From: an uncultured Bacteroidales bacterium
GTDB taxonomy: Bacteria; Bacteroidota; Bacteroidia; Bacteroidales; FEN-979
NCBI GenBank assembly: GCA_903875045.1
Contig: CAIQUS010000234.1
Span: 1 to 52,050, forward strand
DNA length: 52,050 nt
Direction: 5' to 3'
Both the position numbers and the translations under genes were made by a program. The notes beneath the pieces are model-generated. The model saw only the letters and a list, made by a program, of their open reading frames with translations. It searched no databases and was not told where the DNA came from. This document shows positions 448 through 17,317 of the stretch, in pieces (positions within the stretch are counted from its first letter, which is position 1; every line of letters begins with the position of its first letter).

Positions 448-3400
448 ATGAAGAATACAACGCTTTGTATTTCATTGGTATTTGTTGCACTGACAACATG
501 GAGCCAAAAAACGCCACAGCCAGCTTCAGCAAATCCGGACGTTTTTAAAATCAACCCCCGCCTCCCGGATGACAACAACCAAAACATTTCAAGCCCACTG
601 GTCTTACCCTCTGCTTTTGATTTGCGGCCATACGGACGTCTGACGTCAGTGAAAGACCAGGGCAATTGCACCTCCGGCTGGGCTTTTGCCACCATCTCCG
701 CCCTTGAGTACGAATGGAAAAAACAGTGGTTAGGTGACACGGCCCTCTCAGAGAACAACCTTAAAAATTGTCATGGTTTCAACCGGGCCCCGTGTTCAGG
801 TGGCAACATAAAAATGGCCACCGCCTGTCTTACACGCAGTTCGGGAGTGGTTTCAGAGGCTTCCGACCCATACAGTCCGACGGTTCAACCTTGTTTGACC
901 GGAATTGCCCCGCTGGCCTTTGTTTCCGACATACGGTTTGTTCCAAATATAGTACAAACAGTCAAACAGGAACTCTACAATCAACAGGCTATTTACAGCA
1001 CACTTTATTGGACAAATTCATCATATAATTCCTCCAATTTCACCTATTATTACAATGGAACCGCTGTGCCAAACCATGCAGTGACCCTTGTAGGCTGGGA
1101 TGACCTCAAGGTGACATCAGGAGGAACCGGTGCCTGGATTGCCAAGAATTCTTATGGATCGTCGTGGGGAACAAACGGCTATTTTTACATTTCATATAAT
1201 GATACCAGGATTCTTTCAGAAAATGCTTTTTTCCCCTATTACAGCAGAATTCCTTACCACACAAACTCCACACTTTATTGTTATGATGACCTGGGATGGA
1301 TCCAGAGCTGGGGGTACGAAAGTGAGGTGGCTTACGGTTTGATGAAATTTACCGCCACCAACGATAACGGCCTCTCCCACATAGGGACCTGGGTGGTTTC
1401 CGGGAGTTCGACGATCAGTGCTGAAATTTATGACAATTTTGACGGAGCAACCCTTTCGTCCCTCCTATTGACCATTCCCAATCAAACATGCAATTATCCA
1501 GGTTATTACAGCTTCAGAATTGCTGATTACGGCGTTTTAAACCTGATCCCCGGAAATGATTATTATATCAAGGTGAAATATTCAACCCCCGGGTGCAACA
1601 ACCCCATCCCCTCAGAAATGGTCACACCGAATTCTACCGGTGCCACCATACAAACCGGAAAAGGCTGGATGAGCGGGGATGGAATCACCTGGGATGCGGT
1701 AGGTGGCGGGACCCCATATATGCTTGATCTTTGCATTAAAGCAGTTTCCTATAAATCCATGGAACGGCCCCTTTATCTTTCTCCGCTTGGCACTTATCCA
1801 CCCATGCGGCATTTTCAATTTTACTGGGCTCTTCCCGTCGACCGTACAGGCCTTTCAGGGTTCAATGTATACAGGGACCACATTCTGCTAAACCAAACGC
1901 CATTGCCCGTAAATCAAACCATGTACAATGATTACAATATCCCCTATTGTGAACATTCCTATACAGTAAAATCGGTTTACGGTACGGTTGAATCTATTGA
2001 TTCTGATTCACTGACTGTTATGATTGGAAACCAAACCTTCTTCAGGGAGAGTTTTGAAAGGATGTACAACAATCCGAACGGATGGGACATCGAAAATATT
2101 TACAATCCTTCAGGGAATCCCCTGATCACTTATATCACGCAAAATTCAACATGTCCCTCTGTTCCAGGTGCCTTCGACAGTAGTTATATGGTGAAATTTG
2201 CTTCCTGCGGTGCATACCAGAATGAGATTGTACGTTTAAAAAGAAATATTCCCATTTCCACCCTTGGGTTGAACAATGTAAAAATTCAATTTGCCTGGTA
2301 TGAGAGTTCCGTTGCATCTTATGGCAGCGACGGAGTTGATCTGCAATGGTCAACCGATGGAATTACATGGAATACTGCCGCTTCCTTTTTAAGGTACAAT
2401 AGCGTATCAGGCTGGAAGCAAAAGGCCGTATACCTTCCTGCAGAGGCACTGGGACAATCTTCACTCTATATTGCTTTCAAGTTCAACGCCGGCTACCATA
2501 CGGCCGATTGCCTGCTGGATTTGATCCAGCTCTCCAACTGTGGCCCACCCCTGCCAGGTTACCTGCTTCTGGGCTTCAACGGAGGATACTCTTCAACCTA
2601 TCCTTACAGCACTGGGAATATGGATTCAAGAACACAAATGATATATCAGCAAAGCAATATATTAGCGGCTGGCGGATATCCCGGCCTGATCACCCAAATC
2701 GGCTTTTATATATTAACCACACCTTCACTCCAGGTCATGCATAATTTTCAGATAAAGATGAAAAACACCTCCCTGGGTTCTCCGACAAACTGGGTTACAG
2801 GCGGATTAACAACGGTTTATTCAGGCGACTACCAGTTAAGTTACAGTCCAGGGTCAGGGTGGCAGATGATTACCTTGCAAACACCATTCTTATACGATAC
2901 CACCAATCTACTCGTGGAAATTTGCTTTGACAACGACAGCTACTCATATCACACATTCGTTGCCAGTTATTGTTGTTCAAACGTTTTCCATCATCAGTTC
3001 AACGGTGCCGTGACTTCGGGATGTAACACCACGGACGGGAGTATCTCACCATATCAGCCATGGTTTCGCATCTATCTGACACCCGTTGTACAACCTGGCA
3101 CCAGTGTGCAGAATATAACCGTTCAATCTGCACAAACAAAATGTTTCGATGCCATACAAACCGTTGCTGTGGCCGGAAACGGCACTAGTTTCAACGTTAA
3201 TAACGGAGGGCATGCCGACTTGATTGCCGGGCGGAATATCAGGGTTTACCCTGGCGCTTCCGTTCAGGATGGCGGTTATCTGCACGGGTATATTGCCACC
3301 AACGGCCAATACTGCGGCAGCCTGAAAAACGGACTGGTTGCAAATCCGGAAGAAACTTACCCGGATACGCCCCAGGAACCGGTTGGAGCGGATACTCAAT

Positions 3401-3639
3401 TTTTCCGGATATTTCCCAATCCCACAACCGGAAGTTTTACCCTTGCACTCAACAGGCAGGCTGACGGGAAACCGATATTTGTGGAAGTTTACAGCATCAT
3501 GGGAGAAAAAATCCTCACAACCACCCTCCTTGAAACCAGCAGGCACGTTTTCAATTTGTCGGGAAAACCATCCGGGATTTATTTGGTAAAAATTGTATCC
3601 GATGGAATTTCAGAAATTCAAAAAGTAGTGAAGCAATAG
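448..3639 (+). CDS. Secreted papain-fold (C1) pseudopeptidase with T9SS sorting domain, copy 1
   Basis: A 1063-residue exported protein. Residues 1-19 are a signal peptide. Residues about 52-270 are a C1A papain fold. The oxyanion Gln (Q71), His210 (NHAVTLVGW) and Asn234 (AKNSYGSSWG) are present, but the nucleophile Cys of the usual CGSCWAF is Gly77 (NCTSGWAF; codon GGC at 676). Next comes a lectin-like domain of the kind found beside bacterial C1 peptidases (about 275-435, from YDDLGWIQSWGY). An FN3-like segment, a jelly-roll-like region (about 530-700) and a second beta-rich region follow. A module ending NGQYC (about 890-955) precedes the type A sorting domain (about 990-1063, from FRIFPNPTTG). 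It is probably surface-attached through T9SS. With Cys lost, it is more likely a binding protein than a protease. It is a tandem paralogue of the next gene. The ATG is preceded by an AT-rich leader without a strong Shine-Dalgarno. Confidence 0.9.
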   Translation: MKNTTLCISLVFVALTTWSQKTPQPASANPDVFKINPRLPDDNNQNISSPLVLPSAFDLRPYGRLTSVKDQGNCTSGWAFATISALEYEWKKQWLGDTALSENNLKNCHGFNRAPCSGGNIKMATACLTRSSGVVSEASDPYSPTVQPCLTGIAPLAFVSDIRFVPNIVQTVKQELYNQQAIYSTLYWTNSSYNSSNFTYYYNGTAVPNHAVTLVGWDDLKVTSGGTGAWIAKNSYGSSWGTNGYFYISYNDTRILSENAFFPYYSRIPYHTNSTLYCYDDLGWIQSWGYESEVAYGLMKFTATNDNGLSHIGTWVVSGSSTISAEIYDNFDGATLSSLLLTIPNQTCNYPGYYSFRIADYGVLNLIPGNDYYIKVKYSTPGCNNPIPSEMVTPNSTGATIQTGKGWMSGDGITWDAVGGGTPYMLDLCIKAVSYKSMERPLYLSPLGTYPPMRHFQFYWALPVDRTGLSGFNVYRDHILLNQTPLPVNQTMYNDYNIPYCEHSYTVKSVYGTVESIDSDSLTVMIGNQTFFRESFERMYNNPNGWDIENIYNPSGNPLITYITQNSTCPSVPGAFDSSYMVKFASCGAYQNEIVRLKRNIPISTLGLNNVKIQFAWYESSVASYGSDGVDLQWSTDGITWNTAASFLRYNSVSGWKQKAVYLPAEALGQSSLYIAFKFNAGYHTADCLLDLIQLSNCGPPLPGYLLLGFNGGYSSTYPYSTGNMDSRTQMIYQQSNILAAGGYPGLITQIGFYILTTPSLQVMHNFQIKMKNTSLGSPTNWVTGGLTTVYSGDYQLSYSPGSGWQMITLQTPFLYDTTNLLVEICFDNDSYSYHTFVASYCCSNVFHHQFNGAVTSGCNTTDGSISPYQPWFRIYLTPVVQPGTSVQNITVQSAQTKCFDAIQTVAVAGNGTSFNVNNGGHADLIAGRNIRVYPGASVQDGGYLHGYIATNGQYCGSLKNGLVANPEETYPDTPQEPVGADTQFFRIFPNPTTGSFTLALNRQADGKPIFVEVYSIMGEKILTTTLLETSRHVFNLSGKPSGIYLVKIVSDGISEIQKVVKQ

Positions 3640-3649
3640 TCTGGCGTTT

Positions 3650-3686
3650 AAAACACTTCCGGGATTTTAATACCCGGAAGTGTTTT
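3650..3686 (+). terminator. Strong terminator-like palindrome between the two paralogues
   Basis: A perfect 14-bp stem, AAAACACTTCCGGG (3650-3663) with its complement (3673-3686), lies 10 bases after the stop. The T-run on the right arm fits rho-independent termination, so the two paralogues are probably separate transcripts. Confidence 0.7.
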
Positions 3687-3715
3687 GGAAGCATTCGCTT
3701 TTTTATTTTTTTTTA

Positions 3716-3725
3716 CGTATATTTA
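3716..3725 (+). promoter_or_regulatory. Probable -7 box of the second papain-fold gene
   Basis: TATATTTA at 3718-3725 sits at the same place as the -7 box of copy 1 and is followed by a homologous leader. The -33 position has no clear TTG, so the call rests mainly on the parallel with copy 1. Confidence 0.35.
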
Positions 3726-3820
3726 CAATCAAATCCCTGGATGATTTTTACACCCCGCTATGCTGCCACTTATTGATCCAGAGCTGAACCTGCTTTTTTT
3801 CATTCTGTAAAAATACTATT

Positions 3821-6800
3821 ATGAAAAGGTTAGCGATTTGTTGGTCATTTTTCTTAGTGGCATTGACAGCCTGGAATCAAAAAACACCACAACAAGCCTC
3901 TGGTAATCCGGAAATCCCGCAAGCCACCCCTTATTTCCCGGCAAAAAACACCGATAATAGTTCCAATCCACTCGTGCTGCCTGCCGTTTATGATTTACGT
4001 TCTTACAGCTGGGCAAAGACATCTGTGAAAGACCAGGGGAACTGTACCGCAGGCTGGGCTTTCGCCGCCATGGCGGCGCTTGAACATGAATGGAAAAAAC
4101 AAGGGTATAGCGATACCAGCCTCTCCGAAAACAACCTGAAAAACTGTCATGGTTTCAGCAAGGGACCTTGTTCAGGCGGCACGATGAAAATGGCCACTGC
4201 TTACCTCACACGCATGTCGGGACCGGTATCTGAAACTACCGACCCATACAATCCATCGGTTCAATCGTGTCTAACCGGATTAACCCCGCTGGCTTATGTT
4301 TCTGATATCCGGTTTCTTCCAAATGACCTGCAAACGATCAAACAGGAAATTTACAATCAGCATTCACTTTACAGTGCCATGTACTGGACAAGTTCATCCT
4401 ATAATTCCTCCAATTTTACCTACTATTACAGTGGTACCCTGGCTGCCAACCATGCGGTGACACTCGTTGGCTGGAATGACAGTAAAGTGACCGCCGGGGG
4501 TGCCGGGGCCTGGATCGCCAAGAATTCCTTTGGCTCCTCCTGGGGCGAAAGCGGTTACTTTTACATTTCATACAATGACACCAGGATTTTATCAGAAAAT
4601 GCCTTTTTTCCTGACATCAACAGATTACCATATCTTTCCAATTCAACCGTGTACTCGTATGATGACCTGGGATGGGTCCAAAGCTGGGGGTACGGAACCA
4701 CAGAGGCTTATGGTTTAATGAAGTTTGTGGCCACCAACGACAATGGCCTTTCGAGAATCGGCACCTGGGTGGTGGCAGGAAATTCAACGGTTGATATTGA
4801 AATCTATGATAACTTTACCGGCACTGCCCTCTCAAATCTCCTTCTCTCGATTCCCAATCAGTCATGTCCCTATCCCGGTTATTACAGCTTCAGCATACCG
4901 AATTACGAATATTTTAACCTGGTATCCGGGAATGACTATTATATAAAGGTGAAATATACAACACCCGATTGCAACAATCCCATCCCTACAGAGATGGTCT
5001 CTCCGGGTTATTCTACCAATGCCACCATTCAAACCGGAAAATGCTGGATGAGCGGGGATGGAATTACCTGGGATGCCGTGGGCGGGGGAACGCCTTATAT
5101 GCTTGATTTGTGTATTAAAGCCTACACCTATAAGTCAATGGAACCAGTGGGTTGGGTTATGGCCAATGTTCAGGCTCCACCTTTGCAGCACGTACAATTG
5201 TATTTCTATTCCCCGGGCGACCAAACCGGCCTTAGCGGATTTAACGTTTACCGTGACAATGTGAAAATTAACACCTCCTTGTTACCAACCTGGTACAGCC
5301 AATATTACGATGATTATAATGTGCCTTTTTGTGAGCACACCTATACCATAAAAGCGGTGTACGGCTCAGCTGAATCGGTTCCATCACAACCATCAACAGT
5401 TATGATTGGCAAACGAACTGTTTTCACCGACAGTTTTGAACGCTATTACTTTTATCCAACCACATGGACTATTGAAAACCTTGTCAACCCTACCGGAATG
5501 CCCCTGATTACGTTAGCATACCAGAATCCGGTATGCCCGCTGGTTACCCAACCTTATGACAGTACCTATTTTATAAAATTCGCATCCTGTGCTGCCGGGC
5601 AGAATGAGCGGGCAAGGTTAAAAAGAATCATTCCCATTTCTACGATCGGCATGGCCAATGTATCGGTTGATTTTGCCTGGTACCAGAGTTCTCTTGCTTC
5701 CTGGGCATCCGACGGCGTTGAACTTCAGTGGTCAACAGATGGGAACACCTGGATTACCGCAGGTTCATTTCCAAGATATGTTGCTAACAGTGTAACTGGC
5801 TGGTATTTAAAAACCGTAAATCTTCCACAGGAAGCTGTCGGACAACCTGCCATATATATCGCTTTCCTGTTTAAAGCTGCCAATGACAATACCGCTGATT
5901 GTTTGTTGGATTTTGTTCATGTCACTTCCTGTGGCCCTCCATTGCCAGGCTATCTGACGGTGGGCTATTCTGCTTCAGGATCTGTAAACTATCCTTACAC
6001 CACAGGCAGCATGGATGCAAGAACACAGATGATTTACCGACAAAACGATATGTTATATGCAGGGGCATATCCCGGCATGATTACTCAAATTGGCTTTTAT
6101 GTTCCCATTGCGATATCCATGGCACCTGTTATGCATAATTTTCAGATTAAGTTAAAAAACACAGCCCAACAATCCCTGCCCAACTGGGTATCGAATGGCA
6201 TGACAACGGTTTATTCCGGCGATTATCATGTAACCCGTGAAATGAACTGGAATATGATTACCCTGCAAACGCCATTTTATTATGACACCACCAACCTTTT
6301 GGTGGAAATTTGCTTTGACAATGACAGTTATTCTGGAGATGTTCCGGTATCGGCATGGTGTTGCTCCGGCAGCATTTTTCACGATCATTTTAATGGCGCC
6401 AGCACGTCCGGATGCAGCACCACTGCCGGAAGCGCTTATACATATCAACCGAGGTTCCGGATGTATATGACCCCTTTGGTACAAGGGAATACCAATTTAC
6501 AAAATATAACAGTGGAGGCAACGGAGGCAACCTGTTACGATGCCGTCCAAACCATCACCGTGGCCGGAAACGGAACGATTTTCAAAGTTAAAAACGGGGG
6601 ACATATCAACCTGATTGCCGGTCAGAATATTCGTTTCTATCCGGGCACCTCAGTGGAGCAGGGAGGATATCTGCTTGGGCAAATTTCAACCAACGGCCAA
6701 TACTGCGGTTACATGAAAAGCGATTTGGGGCCAAATCCTGAAGAGACAAACCAGGAAACCCCGAAAGAACCTGAAATGGCAACCACTAAATATTTTCGAA

Positions 6801-7030
6801 TCTTCCCCAATCCCACCACCGACACCTTTACCCTTTCACTCACCAGCCCGGCCGACGGGAAACCGGTTTATGTGGAAGTTTACAGCATCCTGGGAGAAAA
6901 AATCCTCACACAGGCCCTCCCCGAAACCGGCAGGCATGTTTTCACTTTATCGGGCGAACCATCCGGGATTTATCTTGTCAAAGTGGTCTCCGCCGGGATT
7001 TCCGAGGTTCAGAAGGTGGTGAAGCAATAG
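3821..7030 (+). CDS. Secreted papain-fold (C1) pseudopeptidase with T9SS sorting domain, copy 2
   Basis: A 1069-residue paralogue of the preceding gene, colinear along its whole length and very similar by eye. It has a signal peptide (1-19), papain fold (about 52-270), lectin-like domain (YDDLGWVQSWGY onward), FN3-like and beta-rich regions, the ECYDAVQT..NGQYC-type module near 900-960 and a type A sorting domain from FRIFPNPTTD. The nucleophile position is again Gly (NCTAGWAF; G78, codon at 4052), while the catalytic His (NHAVTLVGW) and Asn (AKNSFGSSWG) remain. Because both copies keep the fold and the rest of the site, the Cys loss predates the duplication and was retained. It has its own probable promoter and a terminator palindrome downstream. 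A role in binding peptides or other ligands at the surface is an inference; no activity is shown. Confidence 0.9.
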   Translation: MKRLAICWSFFLVALTAWNQKTPQQASGNPEIPQATPYFPAKNTDNSSNPLVLPAVYDLRSYSWAKTSVKDQGNCTAGWAFAAMAALEHEWKKQGYSDTSLSENNLKNCHGFSKGPCSGGTMKMATAYLTRMSGPVSETTDPYNPSVQSCLTGLTPLAYVSDIRFLPNDLQTIKQEIYNQHSLYSAMYWTSSSYNSSNFTYYYSGTLAANHAVTLVGWNDSKVTAGGAGAWIAKNSFGSSWGESGYFYISYNDTRILSENAFFPDINRLPYLSNSTVYSYDDLGWVQSWGYGTTEAYGLMKFVATNDNGLSRIGTWVVAGNSTVDIEIYDNFTGTALSNLLLSIPNQSCPYPGYYSFSIPNYEYFNLVSGNDYYIKVKYTTPDCNNPIPTEMVSPGYSTNATIQTGKCWMSGDGITWDAVGGGTPYMLDLCIKAYTYKSMEPVGWVMANVQAPPLQHVQLYFYSPGDQTGLSGFNVYRDNVKINTSLLPTWYSQYYDDYNVPFCEHTYTIKAVYGSAESVPSQPSTVMIGKRTVFTDSFERYYFYPTTWTIENLVNPTGMPLITLAYQNPVCPLVTQPYDSTYFIKFASCAAGQNERARLKRIIPISTIGMANVSVDFAWYQSSLASWASDGVELQWSTDGNTWITAGSFPRYVANSVTGWYLKTVNLPQEAVGQPAIYIAFLFKAANDNTADCLLDFVHVTSCGPPLPGYLTVGYSASGSVNYPYTTGSMDARTQMIYRQNDMLYAGAYPGMITQIGFYVPIAISMAPVMHNFQIKLKNTAQQSLPNWVSNGMTTVYSGDYHVTREMNWNMITLQTPFYYDTTNLLVEICFDNDSYSGDVPVSAWCCSGSIFHDHFNGASTSGCSTTAGSAYTYQPRFRMYMTPLVQGNTNLQNITVEATEATCYDAVQTITVAGNGTIFKVKNGGHINLIAGQNIRFYPGTSVEQGGYLLGQISTNGQYCGYMKSDLGPNPEETNQETPKEPEMATTKYFRIFPNPTTDTFTLSLTSPADGKPVYVEVYSILGEKILTQALPETGRHVFTLSGEPSGIYLVKVVSAGISEVQKVVKQ

Positions 7031-7042
7031 GCGGCTGATTTC

Positions 7043-7075
7043 AAACCTTCCAGGTTTTGAAAACCTGGAAGGTTT
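7043..7075. repeat. Dispersed palindrome, copy 1 (bidirectional terminator)
   Basis: A 33-base perfect palindrome, AAACCTTCCAGGTTTT G and its complement, sits between two convergent genes and could terminate both. The same palindrome occurs at 8629-8661 and 17335-17367. Its right end overlaps the stop codon of the minus-strand ATPase gene. Confidence 0.8.
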
Positions 7076-8285
7076 AATAGTCGGATTTGATGAGAAATTC
7101 TATCAGGTTCATCCATTTTATGCCATTCCGGTTGGCATCATGAAATTTATCCATGGATAAAACCAATTTCGTGAAATTATCATTGATCATCTCCAAAGCA
7201 CCAAATTCTCTGTCGATTGTTTTCTGATCATGCAATAAATAAGCCACCTGGATATACAGATGTTCATTCCCGGTGGAGGCGATGAAGTCAATTTCGCGCT
7301 CATTGTACTTTCCAATTTCAACTTTATACCCTCTGGCAAGCAATTCAAGGTAAACAATGTTCTCCAGATGACCGGAAATATCTCCGATTTTATATCCAAG
7401 AAGATTGTGTTTTAAACCTATATCTCCTGCGTAATATTTTTCATGGATTTCAAGTAACCGTTTTCCTTTGATATCAAACCGGCTGACCCTGAAGAAAATA
7501 AAGGCACTGGTGAACATGCTGAGATAACTTTGCACTGTATCTACCGAACCTTTGATCCTTTGCGACTTGATATAATCAGCAATCTTTTTTGCAGAAGTAA
7601 TGTTTCCGCAATTATCGGCCGTGAATTTTGCAATCCGTTCAAGCAGCGCAATATCCCGAACTCCGTTTCTTGCAACTACATCTTTAAGCAAGATGGTGTT
7701 ATACAATGCGGAGACATACTGTCCAATCACCTCGTCATCATATTCCATGTGATGAATGCCGGGAAATCCGCCATATTTCATAAATAAACCGAATTCATCT
7801 TCAACATTGTCAGCAGCCTTATTCCCCCTGAACTGCATAAACTCGGAGAATGTGAGCGGGTACATTTTAAACTCAATGTACCGGCCTGAGATGTAGGTGG
7901 CCAATTCCGAGGATAATAATCTTGAATTGGAACCGGTGATGAACAAATCAGCAGTATTGTCTGCCAGGAATCCTGACACGGCTTTTTCCCATCCTTCAAT
8001 TTCCTGGACTTCATCAATAAATAAATATATTACACCTGAGATGGTTTGACACCGTTTCTTCACATAGTCGTTCAACTCCTGGTAATTCCTGATAAAATCA
8101 AAATCCAGGGAATCCTTATTGATCAGGATGACATTCTCTGGCGGCACTTTCTTATCAAGCAATGAATTACAAATCATTTTCAGAAAAGTACTTTTCCCGC
8201 ATCGCCTAATTCCTGTGATAACCTTAATAACAGGCTTACCAATAAATGGGGCGATTTGCTTTAAATAACGGTCACGTAGAATCAT
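7074..8285 (-). CDS. DUF4143-family AAA ATPase (AAA_14)
   Basis: A 403-residue protein from the ATG at 8285. An upstream in-frame TTG at 8315 is rejected because it lies inside the probable -7 box. The Walker A motif GIRRCGKST is at residues 25-33 and the Walker B-like segment YLFIDEVQEIEGW at about 95-110. The C-terminal DUF4143 part carries a nuclease-like pattern with NEREIDFI and IQVAYLL. Proteins of this family are common, often multi-copy, in Bacteroidota and archaea; their cellular role is not settled. The last residues SDY and the stop are written by sequence that also flands the second palindrome copy (TTAAyAGTCGGATT). The gene is monocistronic and convergent with the upstream pseudopeptidase gene. 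Confidence 0.88.
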   Translation of the reverse strand: MILRDRYLKQIAPFIGKPVIKVITGIRRCGKSTFLKMICNSLLDKKVPPENVILINKDSLDFDFIRNYQELNDYVKKRCQTISGVIYLFIDEVQEIEGWEKAVSGFLADNTADLFITGSNSRLLSSELATYISGRYIEFKMYPLTFSEFMQFRGNKAADNVEDEFGLFMKYGGFPGIHHMEYDDEVIGQYVSALYNTILLKDVVARNGVRDIALLERIAKFTADNCGNITSAKKIADYIKSQRIKGSVDTVQSYLSMFTSAFIFFRVSRFDIKGKRLLEIHEKYYAGDIGLKHNLLGYKIGDISGHLENIVYLELLARGYKVEIGKYNEREIDFIASTGNEHLYIQVAYLLHDQKTIDREFGALEMINDNFTKLVLSMDKFHDANRNGIKWMNLIEFLIKSDY

Positions 8286-8312
8286 AAACTTCAGATTATA
8301 CCAGAAACTTTT

Positions 8313-8320
8313 CAAATATA
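8313..8320 (-). promoter_or_regulatory. -7 promoter box of the ATPase gene
   Basis: Read on the minus strand the box is TATATTTG, a perfect TAnnTTTG. It implies a transcript start near 8306 and a leader of about 20 bases before the ATG at 8285. The -33 region (about 8342-8346) has only TTC. Confidence 0.5.
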
Positions 8321-9996: not shown

Positions 9997-11130
9997 ATGA
10001 AAAGACAAATTACCCTCTTACTGTTACTTTTTGTTTCGATGACCCTCAACCTGCAGGCTGCCACGTGGACGGTAAGCAACAACCCCAGCAGCCCGGGGCA
10101 GTATACCAATTTGCAAACAGCCATCGATGCCGCAGCAATTAATGATACCATCATGGTTGCCGGTTCAGCAACCTCTTATGGAAACATTTCGTTTGGAAAA
10201 AGGTTAGTCCTTGTGGGTGCCGGTTACCACAATCCGTATGGGAATAATTCGACTTTGGGGAATGTAACATTATACAGGACAAACCTGTATATAGGTGCCA
10301 GTGGATCTAAGATCATGGGTTTTATTATAACTGGAAATACCTATTTAACCGGATCGTTTTCAGGAAGTAATTCAACAACAGCATTATGCAGTAATATTGT
10401 TTTTGAAAGGTGTCAAATTCTTAGTAGTTTTTATTTTTTCTATAGTACTGGCAGTCCCTACCTTGAACAATTGTTTAAAAATGACACTATTCGAAATTGC
10501 ATCATTTCGGGAACTGTTTATTTTGCCAGTTATAATACTAGTGGGCATGGGCATTTCAAAGATATTTATATTCACAACAATATTTTTAACGGAATAACCT
10601 CTACGAATTCCTCACCATTTATTAATTTCGAAGGTTACAATCCTACTGATTTTACAAATATTAACATTAGAAACAACGTTTTTATTAATAAACTTTATTC
10701 CTGTTTTGGCTCTTTATCAAACATGATCATTGAAAACAACATTTTTTATGCTGCCGAACCCCAGGGAGGCACGGGATGTGTTTTGACAAAAAATCTTACA
10801 TTCATGTGCCTGAATAATAATATTCCCGGCACTGGTAATCTTGGAAGCGGAAATATCATCAATGCAAATCCTTTATTTGTTAATTATCCGCTGGCCGGGG
10901 GAGTCGGGTTCAGTTATACCTACGATTTTCATTTGCAACATCCGGCTTCACCGGGATATAATGCAGGTACCGACGGATCCGACATCGGAATTTATGGAGG
11001 TTGGGCACCCTTTGAGGTTGGGGCCAATCCCTATTTCCCTCAGATGATGGAACTGACCCTTCCAAATGGCAGTTCCGTTCCGGCTGGCGGAACCCTGAAT
11101 GTTCATTTCAAGGCCCGGAAACAGAATTAA
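9997..11130 (+). CDS. Secreted right-handed beta-helix protein
   Basis: A 377-residue protein with signal peptide 1-21 (ending LNLQA). After a segment typical of pectate-lyase-like beta-helix starts (TNLQTAIDAAAINDTIMVAG) it runs as short repeated strands rich in N, I and F (SNIVFERC, NDTIRNCIIS, IYIHNNIF, INIRNNVF, MIIENNIF). That is the ladder pattern of a parallel beta-helix. It ends FKARKQN with no T9SS sorting domain. Ten bases separate it from the next gene, which starts with its own signal peptide, so the two are likely one transcript. No catalytic motif is recognisable, so it may bind or cleave polysaccharide; the substrate is unknown. Confidence 0.75.
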   Translation: MKRQITLLLLLFVSMTLNLQAATWTVSNNPSSPGQYTNLQTAIDAAAINDTIMVAGSATSYGNISFGKRLVLVGAGYHNPYGNNSTLGNVTLYRTNLYIGASGSKIMGFIITGNTYLTGSFSGSNSTTALCSNIVFERCQILSSFYFFYSTGSPYLEQLFKNDTIRNCIISGTVYFASYNTSGHGHFKDIYIHNNIFNGITSTNSSPFINFEGYNPTDFTNINIRNNVFINKLYSCFGSLSNMIIENNIFYAAEPQGGTGCVLTKNLTFMCLNNNIPGTGNLGSGNIINANPLFVNYPLAGGVGFSYTYDFHLQHPASPGYNAGTDGSDIGIYGGWAPFEVGANPYFPQMMELTLPNGSSVPAGGTLNVHFKARKQN

Positions 11131-11140
11131 GATTTTTCAA

Positions 11141-14100
11141 ATGAAAAATCGAATCCTTTGGGTTCTGCTGCTGCTTCTGATGGCAGCGGCTACATCGCAT
11201 GCACAGGTACCCACGCGAGCGGAGTATTTTGTGGATGCCGACCCGGGTGTGGGCCTTGCCACGCCTGTGGTGCTTACACCCGGAGATACCGCAGTGAAAG
11301 ATTTCAGCTTTTCAACCGGCAGTTTGCCACCCGGATACCATATCCTCAATGTCCGGGTCCGTGATGCCATCGGGCGTTGGGGTATCGCGATGTCAACATG
11401 GTTTTACATCTACGACACACAAAACCGGTCGCTGATGTTGCCAGGACACTTCGCGGTTGCCAAAGCTGAATATTTCTTCGACACCGATCCCGGCCAGGGC
11501 ATGGGAACTCCCCTGCCGCTCATCCGGGGCGACACGGTCGATGTTTCCCGTTATCTCAGTGTCATGGGTCTTGATACAGGGTATCATTACCTCTATATCC
11601 GGGCCCTGAGCGAAAACCAACAGTGGGGGCTGGCGCAACGAACCAGGTTCCATGTAGATACATCCTCCTGCAACCTGCCGGTGGCTAATTATTTGTTTGA
11701 TACCGTTACTTTCGGTACGCCATGTCATTTCACGAACCTTTCCACCAACGTTACCGGAGCTACACAATATAAATGGGACATCAACAACGATGGTACGATC
11801 GAATATACTACCAAGGATATCACACATACCTTCACCTCCGCGGGATATTACAAGATCAAATTGATCGTAGAAAATACACCTGTCTGCAAAACCATGAAGA
11901 TCCGGGATGTTGTTACCGGTCCCATGCCCAGTCCGGAAGTGCTCATTGCAGGATCAACCAGTCTTTGCATGGGTGATTCGGTAATCCTAACCTCCAACAA
12001 TTATGAGGAAGGCACCACCTTTGAATGGTCAACCGGGGCGATAACCCGGGCACTTAAGGTGAAGACTGGCGGCAATTACTTTTGCTGGGTTAAAAACAGC
12101 TACGGAATCTCCATCCAATCTGTAACGGTGCATGTTGATGTGTATGAAGTTCCACAAGTGATGCTAACTTACCACAATGCCACAGGTGGTTCTGCCAACG
12201 GATCTGCCTGGGTGGAGATAAACGGCGGTCCGGGCCAGTTTCCATTTCTCTGGTCAAACGGTGCAACCTCCCCGATCCTGAATGGATTGTCGGGTGGCAA
12301 TTATTCCATTACAGTTTCTGATGGTCATTGCCCGGTTATCAGGGAGTTCACGGTCACAAATGAAGCTGTTGCTGTAGGAAATCTCTTAAAGACGGAGTAC
12401 TATTTTGATACTGATCCGGGCCCCGGAAATGGGATACCCATAAATACCTGGGCAGCTGATACGATCGATTTCCTGACAAATATTCCATTGGGCGGTCTTG
12501 GGGAAGGATTTCACTCTCTGTACGTCAGAACGCGAGACACTTATGGAAAATGGGGCCTTGACCGGAGTACAACCTTTTACATCATTTCTTCATCTGCCGG
12601 TCCGGCGCAGGTTGTTCAGCCACCGGTAGCCAGGGCCGAGTATTTCTTTAATACCGACCCAGGAATCGGGAAAGGCCTGAATATACCAATAACAGGGGGA
12701 GATGAAATCACAGCGGATTTCCCCATGCCTGTCAACGGTCTGACTACCGGTTTCTACAATATGTTTGTGAGGGCCTGTGATGCAAAGGGGAAGTGGAGTA
12801 TTTATTCCGGATCGTCCTTTTATGTGTACGATAACCGAAAAATTGACTTGTCTAAAAGGAACAAGTCCATCGCCGGGGCGGAGTATTTCTTTGATACCGA
12901 TCCTGGCATCAGGAATGGCACAAAGATCAAATCGAACATCTACGACACCATTGATCTTTCGCAGGATCTTCGGGTTTCGGGACTGACACCCGGGACACAC
13001 TATATTTATCTCAGGGCTTATGATGAGAAAGGATATACCGGTTTGTGGCAACGTGCCAGTTTCCTGGTCAGAAATGTCACCTGCACCTGCCCTGTGGTCA
13101 ATTTCACAGCAGACACGGTAAATTTGCTCGGAAATCCTACCCACTTTGTCAACCTGAGCACCTCCGTTTCGCCAACTGCAACCTATCAGTGGGATGTGAA
13201 TGGTGATGGGGTGATCGACTACACGACACCTGATGTGAATCATGTCTATTCAGCTTATGGCCTGTACAACGCCAGGCTCACGGTGAAAAACACTGATTCC
13301 TGCTATGCTTCCATGACCCGCCAGGTCGTGGTAAGCCCGGTAATCGACACCAGCCTCACAATTGTTGGTGCATTGACCTTATGTGATGGCAATTCGGTTC
13401 AGATCACTGCCGGGCCTGGATACAGTTATAAGTGGAGTTCAGATGAAACTACGCAATCCATCACAGTAACCCGATCAGGCGATTATTCCGTACGACTTAC
13501 AAATGCTTATGGTGTACAGGGATTTTCGCGAGTGATCCATGTAACGGTTTACCCACTTCCAATTGTTCAGGTCGTTACCATCAATGCTTCCGATGGTAAG
13601 GCGAACGGAACAGCGATATGCAATGTATCGGGCGGGACAGGCATCTATACCTACCTGTGGTCGGACGGGAATACACTTTCTATCACCAACAACCTTTCGG
13701 CAGGAATTTATACTTTGACCGTCAGCGATGGACGGTGCCCCATAATCCGCACATTCACCATCGTAAATGATCCGATTTCCCCTGGCGACATTATCGGAGC
13801 GGAGTACTTTTTCGATACCGAACCCGGTCTGGGAAATGGAACTCCGATAAACATTTCGGGAGGCGATTCAGTTTATTTTGCAACCTATTTGCCGATGGGG
13901 ACACTCTTGCCCGGATTTCATGATCTCTATATCAGGGTTCATGACACTTACGGGCAATGGAGTTTTATACGGAATGAACGGTTTTACGTGTATTCAGTTA
14001 GTTCCGGCGAAACAAAATCTCAACCACCTATTGTCAAAGCAGAATACTTTTTCGACCAGGATCCTGGTTTAGGACTAGGAACTCCGGTGCCCCTGACCAA

Positions 14101-17100
14101 AGGAGATGAAGTGGTCAAAGACTTCATTGCGGTTACTACAGGGCTGATCCCGGGATACCATGATCTGTCGGTCAGGGCTATGGACAGCCTTGGCAGATGG
14201 AGCATGACCGATGCGGAACGGATGTATGTATATGGAGTCTCAAACATTCCTCCACCTGTGGTTCAGCCAAAGATCATTGCGGCAGAGTATTTTTTCGATA
14301 CCGACCCTGGTACCGGCAATGGCATTGCTATTCCATTCAGCCCAAGCGGTGATTTGATCAACCTGGATCGTTTCTTCCCGGTCACAGGTTTAGCTGACGG
14401 GAGTCACTTTGTTTATGTGCGCACAAGGGATGAAGGTGGCAAATGGGGCATTGACAAACGTTTGGCATTCAATGTAATTCACACTGTTTGTACAACACCA
14501 ACACCCGGGTTTAATTCCGGTACTGCCAATGCCGGCACACCGGTGGCATTAACAAACACATCCTGGAATCTTCTTCCGGGAACAGCCTTCCAGTGGGACA
14601 TCAACAACGATGGCACAATTGAATATACCACGAAGGATATCACCCATACCTTTGCTGTTTCGGGCAATTATGATGTCAAACTCACGGTCATCAATTCAGA
14701 TACCTGTAAGGCTTCCATCCTGAGGCAGGTATTTGTCGGGCCGTCACCGCCTGCTACCCTCACCATCCTGGGAAATACAACATTTTGCACAGGAGATTCA
14801 ACCAAGCTGACTGCTTCGGACGGATACATGTATGAATGGTGGCCAACAGGTGAAACAACCCGCTCAATTTATGTCAAATCATCAGGTAATTACTATTGCT
14901 GGCTCAAAACGCCGGCAGGAATTGAAGTTAAATCGGAAGTCGCGGTAATAAAGTGCTATCCGGTTCCGACGGTAACCTTACATGTGATTGAAGCCAGTGC
15001 CGGAAATAGCAATGGAAGTGCATGGGTTGAAGTAACGGAAGGCAGCGGGAGCTACGTTTATCAGTGGTCGTCAGGATCTACCGCAATGTTTGCCACCAAC
15101 CTCTCACAGGGAAGCTATACAGTGCAGGTAAGCGACGGGCATTGTCCGGTGGTGAAAAGTTTTAATGTAGGAACACATCCGGTTGTAGCGGGAAATATCG
15201 TGACAGCCGAATATTTCTTCGATCTTGATCCGGGAATCGGAATGGGTGCCCCACTGAACGTTTCTGCGGCAGATACCATTGAATACTATACAGGTTGTGA
15301 TTTAACAGGATTGGCTGTGGGCTATCATACTTTGTTTATCCGTGTAATGGATACTTTCCATAAATGGAGCTTTCATACACAACAATCATTCTATGTTTTT
15401 GATATCCAAGCCAGATCGATCGTTGTAAATCAGCCACCCATAACCTCCTCGGAATATTTTGTTGACCTTAATATCAGTACCAAACCCGATCCCGGGGTTG
15501 GAAAGGGCACGACAGTTGCCGTAACACCCGGGGAAATGGTCGATGTAAACTTTGGTTATACCGTGGATACCATGTTGGTAGGATTTCATTACATAGCGGC
15601 TCGTGCTGCAGATCAATCTCGAAAATGGAGCCATATTTACCCTGCAACTTTTTACATTTACGACACAACCCGGAAGGATATAACAACGATCCAGCCTCCC
15701 ATTATTGCTGCAGAGTATTTTCTGGATACCGATCCGGGTGTTGGAAATGGCATCTCCCTCGGCATCACTCCAGGCGATATGGTAATATGGGATGGTGGAA
15801 TCCCGATGGGAGCCACATCCATTGGTACACACAATTTGTATGTGCGGGTGAAAGATTCAGAAAAAAAATGGAGTTTGTACAAGAAGGCAACCTTTGGTGT
15901 ATACCAATGCACCCAACCCGATGCCAACTTCAGTTTCGTACAAACCTGTATCAACACACCGGTGCAGTTTACCGACCTCTCCACCAACGTTGACCCTGCC
16001 GCCACTTATGCCTGGGACTTCAACAACGACGGCATTGTTGACAATACAACGCATGGAAGTGTTTCGCACCAGTATACCGTTCCCGGAATCTACCAGTGCA
16101 AGCTGAAGATCACCCACAACGTGGCCTGTTTCGACAGTGTCATCAAAACGGTAGTGTTCCCTTATGTACACCTGCAGAACGATACCACTATTTACACCGA
16201 CCAGTCGATCGTGTTGGACGGCGGACCGGGATATTCCTATCTGTGGAGCACCGGGGACATAACCCAGACCATCACGGTTAACGGCGCCACTGCCGGTATC
16301 GGGTTGCACAACTATTCGGTGACTGTCACCAATGCGTTGTCATGTATTGCCACCGACAACATCAACATCACGGTGACGTTGCCTCCGCGCGACCTGGTGA
16401 TCATGTCAGCTTCGATGTTCCATGATACCATTCCTGTTTCCGGTGATTCGGCTGATTTGCACTGTATGATCAAAAACACCGGGACTATCTCTGCCGTGGC
16501 CAGCGTGGTGCAATACTTTCTTTCGCCCGACAGTATCAAATCACCGTCTGATCAGTACCTTGGATTCGGGATTGTGAGTGCCCTCGGGCCGGGAGCGTCT
16601 GTAGCAGTTACCAGCAGACTATTCATTCCGGCAGGACCTGACGGACAAGTCTGGTACATCATTTTCGTGGCCGATGGCGCAGGTATCGTAGTTGAAAGCA
16701 ATGAGGGAAACAACATCAAACCTGTTTCATTCCTTTATGGCTCTGCCGGCGTTCCTGTTATACTTTCGGTTCACGACCAGATAGTTGGTTCAGGTCAGGT
16801 GCGGTGTTACAATGCACTTGAAACCATTACAGTCGGAGGCCTTTCATTTTTCCAGGTCCAGACAGGGGGCAGCGCGACCTTTATTGCCGGGCTGAAAATC
16901 AAATATCTGCCCGGCACCAAAGTGTTTCAGGGGGGATACATGCATGGATATATCACATCCAACGGGCAATATTGCGTTCCGCAAACCATGTCCAACCCGC
17001 TGGTTGCGTCCGACTCTTCCATCACAAAAGGTGGTTTCACCGGGCTTGAGTCCGACCGGGAACCACCCGGCAACAAGTTCTGTTACATCTATCCAAACCC

Positions 17101-17317
17101 GACAAATGGAGCATTTCATCTGATCCTTTCCTCCAAAAACAGGGAATGGCCGGTCAATGTACGGATATACAATGCTTATGGCGCTATGATCCGGGAGACC
17201 ATCCTCACGGAGGGCCGATCGCATCAATTATCACTGAAAGATCAGTCCCCGGGAATTTATTTCCTGCATATCGGGCATGGGAGTAGTACGGAAGTTGAAA
17301 AAGTGATCAGGTATTAA
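11141..17317 (+). CDS. Giant T9SS cargo with eleven AEYFFDTDPG repeats, PKD, SprB and CARDB modules
   Basis: A 2058-residue protein from the ATG at 11141; the longer in-frame start at 11099 lies inside the previous gene. The signal peptide is 1-22 (ending SHAQ). Eleven repeats of about 80 residues begin AEYFFDTDPGxGxG and end LYVRxRDxxGKWxxxxxxxFYVY. Their starts are near 11219, 11468, 12396, 12640, 12880, 13801, 14041, 14286, 15209, 15452 and 15714. They come in groups of 2, 3, 3 and 3. Each group is followed by a PKD-like domain with a WDINNDGTIEYTT-type loop (near 11770, 13190, 14590 and 16010). An Ig-like segment (LCxGDS) follows, and in three cases a SprB-like repeat (SDGHCPV). A CARDB domain (about 16385-16735), a module shared with the papain-fold proteins (16775-16975) and a type A sorting domain (from YIYPNPTNGAF) complete it. 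Probably a surface adhesin or filament; function not known. Confidence 0.88.
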   Translation: MKNRILWVLLLLLMAAATSHAQVPTRAEYFVDADPGVGLATPVVLTPGDTAVKDFSFSTGSLPPGYHILNVRVRDAIGRWGIAMSTWFYIYDTQNRSLMLPGHFAVAKAEYFFDTDPGQGMGTPLPLIRGDTVDVSRYLSVMGLDTGYHYLYIRALSENQQWGLAQRTRFHVDTSSCNLPVANYLFDTVTFGTPCHFTNLSTNVTGATQYKWDINNDGTIEYTTKDITHTFTSAGYYKIKLIVENTPVCKTMKIRDVVTGPMPSPEVLIAGSTSLCMGDSVILTSNNYEEGTTFEWSTGAITRALKVKTGGNYFCWVKNSYGISIQSVTVHVDVYEVPQVMLTYHNATGGSANGSAWVEINGGPGQFPFLWSNGATSPILNGLSGGNYSITVSDGHCPVIREFTVTNEAVAVGNLLKTEYYFDTDPGPGNGIPINTWAADTIDFLTNIPLGGLGEGFHSLYVRTRDTYGKWGLDRSTTFYIISSSAGPAQVVQPPVARAEYFFNTDPGIGKGLNIPITGGDEITADFPMPVNGLTTGFYNMFVRACDAKGKWSIYSGSSFYVYDNRKIDLSKRNKSIAGAEYFFDTDPGIRNGTKIKSNIYDTIDLSQDLRVSGLTPGTHYIYLRAYDEKGYTGLWQRASFLVRNVTCTCPVVNFTADTVNLLGNPTHFVNLSTSVSPTATYQWDVNGDGVIDYTTPDVNHVYSAYGLYNARLTVKNTDSCYASMTRQVVVSPVIDTSLTIVGALTLCDGNSVQITAGPGYSYKWSSDETTQSITVTRSGDYSVRLTNAYGVQGFSRVIHVTVYPLPIVQVVTINASDGKANGTAICNVSGGTGIYTYLWSDGNTLSITNNLSAGIYTLTVSDGRCPIIRTFTIVNDPISPGDIIGAEYFFDTEPGLGNGTPINISGGDSVYFATYLPMGTLLPGFHDLYIRVHDTYGQWSFIRNERFYVYSVSSGETKSQPPIVKAEYFFDQDPGLGLGTPVPLTKGDEVVKDFIAVTTGLIPGYHDLSVRAMDSLGRWSMTDAERMYVYGVSNIPPPVVQPKIIAAEYFFDTDPGTGNGIAIPFSPSGDLINLDRFFPVTGLADGSHFVYVRTRDEGGKWGIDKRLAFNVIHTVCTTPTPGFNSGTANAGTPVALTNTSWNLLPGTAFQWDINNDGTIEYTTKDITHTFAVSGNYDVKLTVINSDTCKASILRQVFVGPSPPATLTILGNTTFCTGDSTKLTASDGYMYEWWPTGETTRSIYVKSSGNYYCWLKTPAGIEVKSEVAVIKCYPVPTVTLHVIEASAGNSNGSAWVEVTEGSGSYVYQWSSGSTAMFATNLSQGSYTVQVSDGHCPVVKSFNVGTHPVVAGNIVTAEYFFDLDPGIGMGAPLNVSAADTIEYYTGCDLTGLAVGYHTLFIRVMDTFHKWSFHTQQSFYVFDIQARSIVVNQPPITSSEYFVDLNISTKPDPGVGKGTTVAVTPGEMVDVNFGYTVDTMLVGFHYIAARAADQSRKWSHIYPATFYIYDTTRKDITTIQPPIIAAEYFLDTDPGVGNGISLGITPGDMVIWDGGIPMGATSIGTHNLYVRVKDSEKKWSLYKKATFGVYQCTQPDANFSFVQTCINTPVQFTDLSTNVDPAATYAWDFNNDGIVDNTTHGSVSHQYTVPGIYQCKLKITHNVACFDSVIKTVVFPYVHLQNDTTIYTDQSIVLDGGPGYSYLWSTGDITQTITVNGATAGIGLHNYSVTVTNALSCIATDNINITVTLPPRDLVIMSASMFHDTIPVSGDSADLHCMIKNTGTISAVASVVQYFLSPDSIKSPSDQYLGFGIVSALGPGASVAVTSRLFIPAGPDGQVWYIIFVADGAGIVVESNEGNNIKPVSFLYGSAGVPVILSVHDQIVGSGQVRCYNALETITVGGLSFFQVQTGGSATFIAGLKIKYLPGTKVFQGGYMHGYITSNGQYCVPQTMSNPLVASDSSITKGGFTGLESDREPPGNKFCYIYPNPTNGAFHLILSSKNREWPVNVRIYNAYGAMIRETILTEGRSHQLSLKDQSPGIYFLHIGHGSSTEVEKVIRY

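Follow-up and report, generated by a model that had tools for sequence, protein, structure and literature searches.

Which role is left to a papain-like protein once its catalytic cysteine has gone? The question is raised by two neighbouring genes, W1 and W2, in the 52,050-nucleotide stretch of DNA analysed here (the window), which is one whole contig (CAIQUS010000234.1; C234) of the draft genome of an uncultured Bacteroidales bacterium (GCA_903875045.1; 5.96 Mb in 253 contigs). The genes are tandem open reading frames (ORFs) on the same strand, their protein products are 66% identical, and both carry a glycine where papain-family (C1A) peptidases have their nucleophile. On balance, W1 and W2 are probably pseudopeptidases of the Cwp84 type, leaving the cell through the type IX secretion system (T9SS), with an open, non-cutting cleft that would most likely hold peptides. 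The genes, their peptidase domains, and the positions at the active site are as follows:

448..3639, + strand: predicted pseudopeptidase gene copy 1 (W1), ORF of 1063 amino acids (aa); Pfam Peptidase_C1 1.2e-33, Lectin_like 8.3e-20, Por_Secre_tail 3.1e-11
3821..7030, + strand: predicted pseudopeptidase gene copy 2 (W2), ORF of 1069 aa; Pfam Peptidase_C1 1.1e-34, Lectin_like 3.2e-25, Por_Secre_tail 5.5e-10
604..1203, + strand: Peptidase_C1 domain of W1 (aa 53-252, Pfam)
3977..4579, + strand: Peptidase_C1 domain of W2 (aa 53-253, Pfam)
676..678, + strand: Gly (codon GGC) at the papain Cys25 (nucleophile) position, W1 aa 77
4052..4054, + strand: Gly (codon GGC) at the nucleophile position, W2 aa 78
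1075..1077, + strand: His159 equivalent of W1 (aa 210), read from the sequence
4451..4453, + strand: His159 equivalent of W2, read from the sequence
1147..1149, + strand: Asn175 equivalent of W1 (aa 234), read from the sequence
4523..4525, + strand: Asn175 equivalent of W2, read from the sequence

The nucleophile position in the pair and its relatives

An earlier, sequence-only reading of this DNA had claimed that Gly replaces the nucleophile of the CGSCWAF motif in both genes and that the oxyanion Gln, the His and the Asn of the site are kept along with the disulfide-type cysteines, and each of these assignments holds. The motif reads QGNCTSGWAF in W1 and QGNCTAGWAF in W2; Gln19 is present in both copies (W1 codon 658-660), as are four cysteines of the disulfide type (W1 residues 74, 108, 116, and 149; W2 each one higher). 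Also retained in both are Gly65 and Gly66, the two residues that in papain grip the substrate backbone. Three more changes are common to W1 and W2: Gly23 is replaced by Thr, Trp177 by Tyr (W1) or Phe (W2), and the pro-segment motif is missing. Because the defining Cys25 nucleophile was checked and is absent, W1 and W2 are assigned to the C1A fold and the Cwp84-type architecture and not to the C1A peptidases, and their sequences suggest that catalysis has been lost.

Among the other proteins of a first set that combine C1 and Lectin_like domains, Cys25 is present in 90/90, His159 in 89/90, and Asn175 in 90/90. The search of genome contigs for relatives used an alignment as the query and returned at least 592 stretches and 527 relatives, of which the best 80 were kept; with a single protein in place of the alignment, no relatives were found in the genome contigs. 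In an enlarged set of 157 other non-redundant C1+Lectin_like relatives, the nucleophile is Cys in 155, Gly in two, and Ser in none. To be counted, a row had to cover the three catalytic columns and 60 or more of the lectin-like columns (188 rows; 159 once duplicates were dropped, including the two of the window); matches cut by contig ends are not in the set, nor is G954:C7, which covers the lectin-like part only. With at most four candidates scored per genome, C1+Lectin_like proteins were found in 63, the window's own genome among them, out of 393 genomes sampled across the order. The Gly at the nucleophile position of the pair is neither a chance event nor a family-wide trait.

The two other Gly-bearing relatives, L164 (genome G820) and L231 (G1046), belong to the same order, keep the His and the Asn, and have open frames. 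In the tree of the 159 rows they are placed apart from each other and from the window pair, which implies that Cys changed to Gly about three separate times. The window pair itself is monophyletic (100/100), and its sister is the Cys-bearing L006 from G035, a genome of the same family (86/86 in one tree, 0.711 in the 159-row tree). No second Gly version was seen in 42 other genomes of that family.

Among 395 sampled genomes of the phylum, the pattern QGxCxxGWAF was found in the pair's own genome only. To infer uniqueness from this pattern alone would be a mistake, since it is too narrow to detect the Gly-bearing relatives L164 and L231. L050 was rejected as a Gly case because it is misaligned: in its PSCVGWA, read by eye, a Cys stands where the normal spacing from the Gln would place it. 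This protein, the sole Gly among the 16 other rows of the first set, lacks a lectin-like part and does not enter the counts.

L164 (G820:C222) comes from another family of the order and lies in a frame of 983 aa within its locus, with the Gly in DQVLATGPGWAF. Its Trp177 is replaced by Arg, its pro-segment motif is eroded to GLIYVSSN, and Cys22 and Cys95 are also lost. L231 (G1046:C21) carries the Gly in SQGGGTGWAF, keeps Trp177, and belongs to a side group without a pro-segment, in which L220 and L225 read GGTCW at the same site. Elsewhere in the set, L169, L172, L173, L175, L178, and L180 have Asp at Asn175 and Tyr at Trp177, either a Cys-His-Asp variant or a local misalignment. Possible further non-catalytic members that keep Cys25 are L162 (Gln19 to Arg, with Gly65 changed too), L087 (His159 to Asn), and L212 (Gln19 to His).

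Domain architecture, export, and the pro-segment

Beyond the peptidase domain, the two genes and the DNA between them contain the following features:

1273..1746, + strand: Lectin_like domain (PF18560) of W1 (aa 276-433, Pfam)
4649..5128, + strand: Lectin_like domain (PF18560) of W2 (aa 277-436, Pfam)
3409..3630, + strand: T9SS type A C-terminal sorting domain of W1 (Por_Secre_tail; TIGR04183 3.3e-12)
6800..7021, + strand: T9SS type A C-terminal sorting domain of W2 (Por_Secre_tail; TIGR04183 2.8e-11)
505..603, + strand: shortened pro-segment remnant of W1 (aa 20-52), GYIPxP motif not recognisable
3878..3976, + strand: shortened pro-segment remnant of W2 (aa 20-52)
3644..3692, + strand: strong hairpin 3' of W1, between W1 and W2, terminator-like by eye
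3712..3820, + strand: leader of W2, resembling the W1 leader at about 350-447 (DNA alignment of 300-470 with 3660-3843)

In both proteins Lectin_like directly follows Peptidase_C1, which is the order of domains in Cwp84. An AlphaFold2 (AF2) model of W1 has a mean predicted local distance difference test score (pLDDT) of 89.9, and its Foldseek matches include Cwp84 and cathepsins; when aa 1-450 are used, the best matches are the Cwp84 entries 4ci7 and 4d59. At the N-terminus, where T9SS cargo would carry a signal peptide, a hydrophobic stretch is visible by eye, and in the model of W1 aa 2-16 form a helix. Because of the C-terminal sorting tails, recognised by both Por_Secre_tail and TIGR04183, W1 and W2 are predicted to leave the cell through the T9SS. 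The earlier reading of a T9SS-exported pair of binding pseudoproteases is supported in part: both are C1A proteins with a lost nucleophile and a T9SS tail, and the binding role is a proposal. The genome has at least 150 such tails (150 of 150 scored candidates matched, of 357 in all).

When folded, positions 3640-3700 reach -28 kcal/mol (z -6.56), and none of 200 shuffles did equally well. Given this hairpin behind W1 and the alike leaders, each copy would form its own transcription unit and would have been duplicated together with its leader. Further downstream in W1, the region at 2035-3105 (aa 530-886) has counterparts of about 34-48% identity both in many other proteins from the genus and at other places in its own genome, and Pfam gives it a weak Reelin_subrepeat-B match only. 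Directly behind the pair, on the opposite strand, lies an AAA_14/DUF4143 ATPase (7074-8315, - strand); also nearby is a 2072-aa protein that combines PKD, SprB, and CARDB repeats with a T9SS tail (11099-17317, + strand).

Most relatives have a pro-segment motif of the GYIPxP type, its Pro being present in 51/55, and a profile alignment sets NGVIPFP of Cwp84 on the family motif GYIPSP. In the Cwp84 structure, the propeptide runs into the groove, with Val66 at S2 (PMC4089489). In W1 and W2 the motif is gone or eroded. The Pro column is filled in W2, which we think is a chance alignment, and in PRLPDD/PYFPAK the motif may have eroded instead of having been cleanly deleted. From the start Met to the domain there are 53 residues in both copies and at least 62 in the measured relatives that have the segment, except for L119 (34, with an uncertain start codon); the measurement covers part of the rows. 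AF2 gives pLDDT values below 50 for W1 aa 29-46, and in its model of the Cys-bearing L067 the pro-segment is ordered (10-residue blocks over 41-90 at 87-98 pLDDT).

In 55 relatives, 59 columns reach a conservation of 85% or more, and ten of them differ in W1, W2, or both. Those that differ in the two copies together are Pro27, which lies in the pro-segment, and Gly23, Cys25, aa 88, aa 180, and Trp177; three of the six belong to the catalytic site. As a control, deviations were counted at 58 conserved columns: there are eight in W1 and six in W2, with a median of three over 57 rows.

Selection, the proposed groove, and its rivals

The W1 and W2 genes were compared by the Nei-Gojobori method in six regions and overall, with 300 bootstraps on the peptidase domain only. 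The ratio of nonsynonymous to synonymous divergence (dN/dS) of the peptidase domain is 0.155 (bootstrap 0.09-0.235; dS 1.06), the lowest of the six; it is 0.181 for Lectin_like, 0.329 for 434-530, 0.186 for 530-886, 0.231 for 887-1063, 0.27 for the N-terminal remnant, and 0.212 overall. Identity between the copies is 77% in Lectin_like, 73% in the peptidase domain, 62% in 530-886, and 51% in 434-530. Between two Gly-bearing copies, then, the catalytic residue is lost yet the domain is constrained; the low ratio makes decay unlikely, and the view of the sequence-only reading that the pair was kept after duplication gains support from this divergence under purifying selection. The parsimonious reading is that the nucleophile was lost before the duplication, in which case the whole divergence of W1 and W2 accumulated without it.

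We infer an order of events, an open cleft, peptide binding, and a location as follows. The ancestral protein would have lost its nucleophile (Cys to Gly), the adjoining Gly23, Trp177 (the cover of the His-Asn pair), and that portion of the pro-segment which fills the cleft. Duplication of the gene together with its leader would have followed. With the nucleophile and the inhibitory segment gone, the groove that separates the peptidase domain from the lectin-like domain would stand permanently open while keeping Gly65-Gly66, the oxyanion Gln, and the His and Asn, and an extended peptide or protein segment would most likely be held there uncut, either on the cell surface or in the surrounding medium, for capture, adhesion, or docking. 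The Protein Data Bank titles in the Foldseek listing include complexes of peptides with the C25A and C25S forms of cathepsin V, which indicates that a papain fold without Cys25 is able to hold peptides.

The strongest of the rivals, which we nevertheless consider unlikely, is that the papain and lectin-like domains are a structural spacer of T9SS adhesins whose function resides in the C-terminal modules (aa 434-886). A scaffold can do without catalytic residues, and the 530-886 region not only has relatives in many proteins of the same genus but is itself constrained (0.186); yet it is the peptidase and Lectin_like domains that are best conserved by identity (73% and 77%, with dN/dS of 0.155 and 0.181), and none of the cleft residues (the glycines, Gln, His, and Asn) has been lost. 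It is less probable again, and by a wide step, that the dead peptidases act as decoys or regulators, protecting or tuning active cysteine peptidases by binding their inhibitors or substrates. No Cys-bearing C1A+Lectin_like paralogue was found in the pair's own genome, where the PF00112 matches (6/6 candidates scored) are the pair and a protein with a GTCWSY motif that we take to be bleomycin-hydrolase-like; this speaks against a regulator of such a paralogue, though the partner could be foreign. G820 and G1046, the genomes of the other Gly versions, each gave a single match at E<=1e-20, with 4/5 and 4/6 candidates scored. Inactive proteases elsewhere do have regulatory, inhibitory, and immunomodulating roles, as described for other systems (PMC5956821).

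That W1 and W2 are still enzymes by another route, through Cys22 or through the His and Asn with water, is very improbable, even though Cys22 lies three residues ahead of the nucleophile and both His159 and Asn175 remain. Of the 157 relatives, 67 have Cys22 together with Cys63 and 87 have neither, while three have Cys63 alone and none has Cys22 alone; for Cys56 and Cys95 the numbers are 80 with both, 68 with neither, nine with Cys56 alone, and none with Cys95 alone. Since Cys22 never occurs without Cys63, nor Cys95 without Cys56, disulfides account for all four of the retained cysteines, and Cys22 was rejected as an alternative nucleophile on this pairing. The peptidase domain of W1 has a further cysteine, Cys127, which is absent from W2, and W2 has no other. 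The remaining thiols are thus best explained as disulfides, and a substitute nucleophile appears unlikely from the alignment; another Cys aligned with the nucleophile, which the sequence-only reading had named among the findings that would overturn it, was seen neither in the column alignment nor in the cysteine covariation. Trp177 and Gly23 are lost as well, and even a Cys-to-Ser change is reported to abolish activity (PMC4671257). Least probable of all is that the genes are decaying pseudogenes or products of an assembly or sequencing error: the sequence comes from a single assembly, a draft of 253 contigs, but the same change is found in both copies, although 34% of their residues differ, and each is full length with a tail and without internal stops, and the peptidase-domain dN/dS is 0.155.

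Several points weigh against a pair of exported pseudopeptidases that hold peptides in an open groove. The retained His, Asn, and Gln could serve folding alone. The constraint on 530-886 is similar (0.186), the difference from the peptidase domain (0.155) lying within the bootstrap range and not being significant, and a pairwise dN/dS is a domain average, here at a dS of about 1.06. As the family offered no further Gly version, selection is judged from two sequences, and loss before the duplication is preferred on parsimony, where gene conversion between the copies could also have produced the shared Gly. Trp177 is replaced in 29/157 relatives, and the Cys-bearing L115 (10) and L100 (9) deviate at more conserved columns than W1 and W2. 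A side group that bears the Cys (L034, L147-L149, L220, and L225) is also without a pro-segment, so its loss alone is no mark of a dead enzyme, which weakens the idea that a missing pro-segment is special to dead proteins; and the low pLDDT of W1 aa 29-46 may stem in part from sparse alignment rows there. Finally, mismatched control pairs of cysteines are associated too, if more weakly (both, first alone, second alone, neither: Cys22/Cys95 56/11/24/66; Cys56/Cys63 59/30/11/57), as would be expected from shared ancestry.

Two of the three Cys-to-Gly cases have also lost Trp177 and the cleft-filling pro-segment motif. We suggest, tentatively and as a possibility that goes well beyond the pair, that Cwp84-type peptidases of this order may repeatedly turn into surface peptide receptors, presented by the T9SS and with an open non-cutting groove, of which the window pair would be a duplicated and possibly ligand-diversified case.

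Comparison with known systems

The closest characterised protein is Cwp84 of Clostridioides difficile (4ci7, 4d59, 4d5a), the top match by both profile and structure, which likewise has a papain-type domain followed by a lectin-like domain. For 4d59 and W1 aa 1-450, the template modelling (TM) score is 0.74 by query length and 0.82 by target length. Cwp84 has a Cys116 nucleophile (the solved form is C116A), a propeptide that fills the cleft, and domains that bind the cell wall, and its lectin-like domain binds calcium (PMC4089489). W1 and W2, in contrast, have Gly at the nucleophile, no recognisable GYIPxP segment, and a T9SS tail. Much closer in sequence are L006 (G035) and L007 (G023) of the same family, which are 53% and 50% identical to the pair over the two domains; unlike the pair, they have CGSCWTF, a GYVP/GYIP pro-segment, and Trp177.

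Papain-like proteins without the catalytic Cys are familiar from eukaryotes. Soybean P34 has Gly at this position, and the silicateins have Ser. Ser is also found in Plasmodium SERA5, a eukaryotic papain-like protein to which a non-enzymatic role is ascribed (PMC4671257). The SMIPP-C proteins of the scabies mite resemble the pair in being C1A paralogues with a replaced nucleophile and no predicted pro-peptide; they differ in being mite proteins with a Cys-to-Ser change, and the portion of the account available mentions neither a lectin-like domain nor a T9SS tail (PMC5956821). The sequence-only reading had described C1 pseudoproteases as known in animals, which is true of the mite proteins and too narrow in view of Plasmodium SERA5 and of the bacterial Gly cases L164 and L231.

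In the open-licence literature, among the matches listed, no bacterial Cys-less C1A peptidase with a lectin-like domain was found. Full novelty is tempered by Table 4 of PMC10380794, where 'Loss of active site' appears among the forces that act on C1A peptidases; the table has separate columns for Archaea, Bacteria, Eukaryota, and Viruses, so that active-site loss in bacterial C1A proteins may already be on record there. Among papain-like proteins of the NlpC/P60 type, DUF1175 is described as an inactive, peptidoglycan-binding family (PMC10318531), and bacterial pseudoproteases of other folds include MamO and pseudo-orthocaspases.

Set against the papain-family proteins without a catalytic Cys described in the papers considered here, which are eukaryotic, the window pair is a conserved, duplicated bacterial example. 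Together with the Cys-bearing sister L006 and the two separate Gly cases, it forms a natural series on what becomes of a papain groove after cutting stops, and the joint loss of the nucleophile, Trp177, and the cleft-filling pro-segment motif provides a sequence signature that lends itself to searches and tests.

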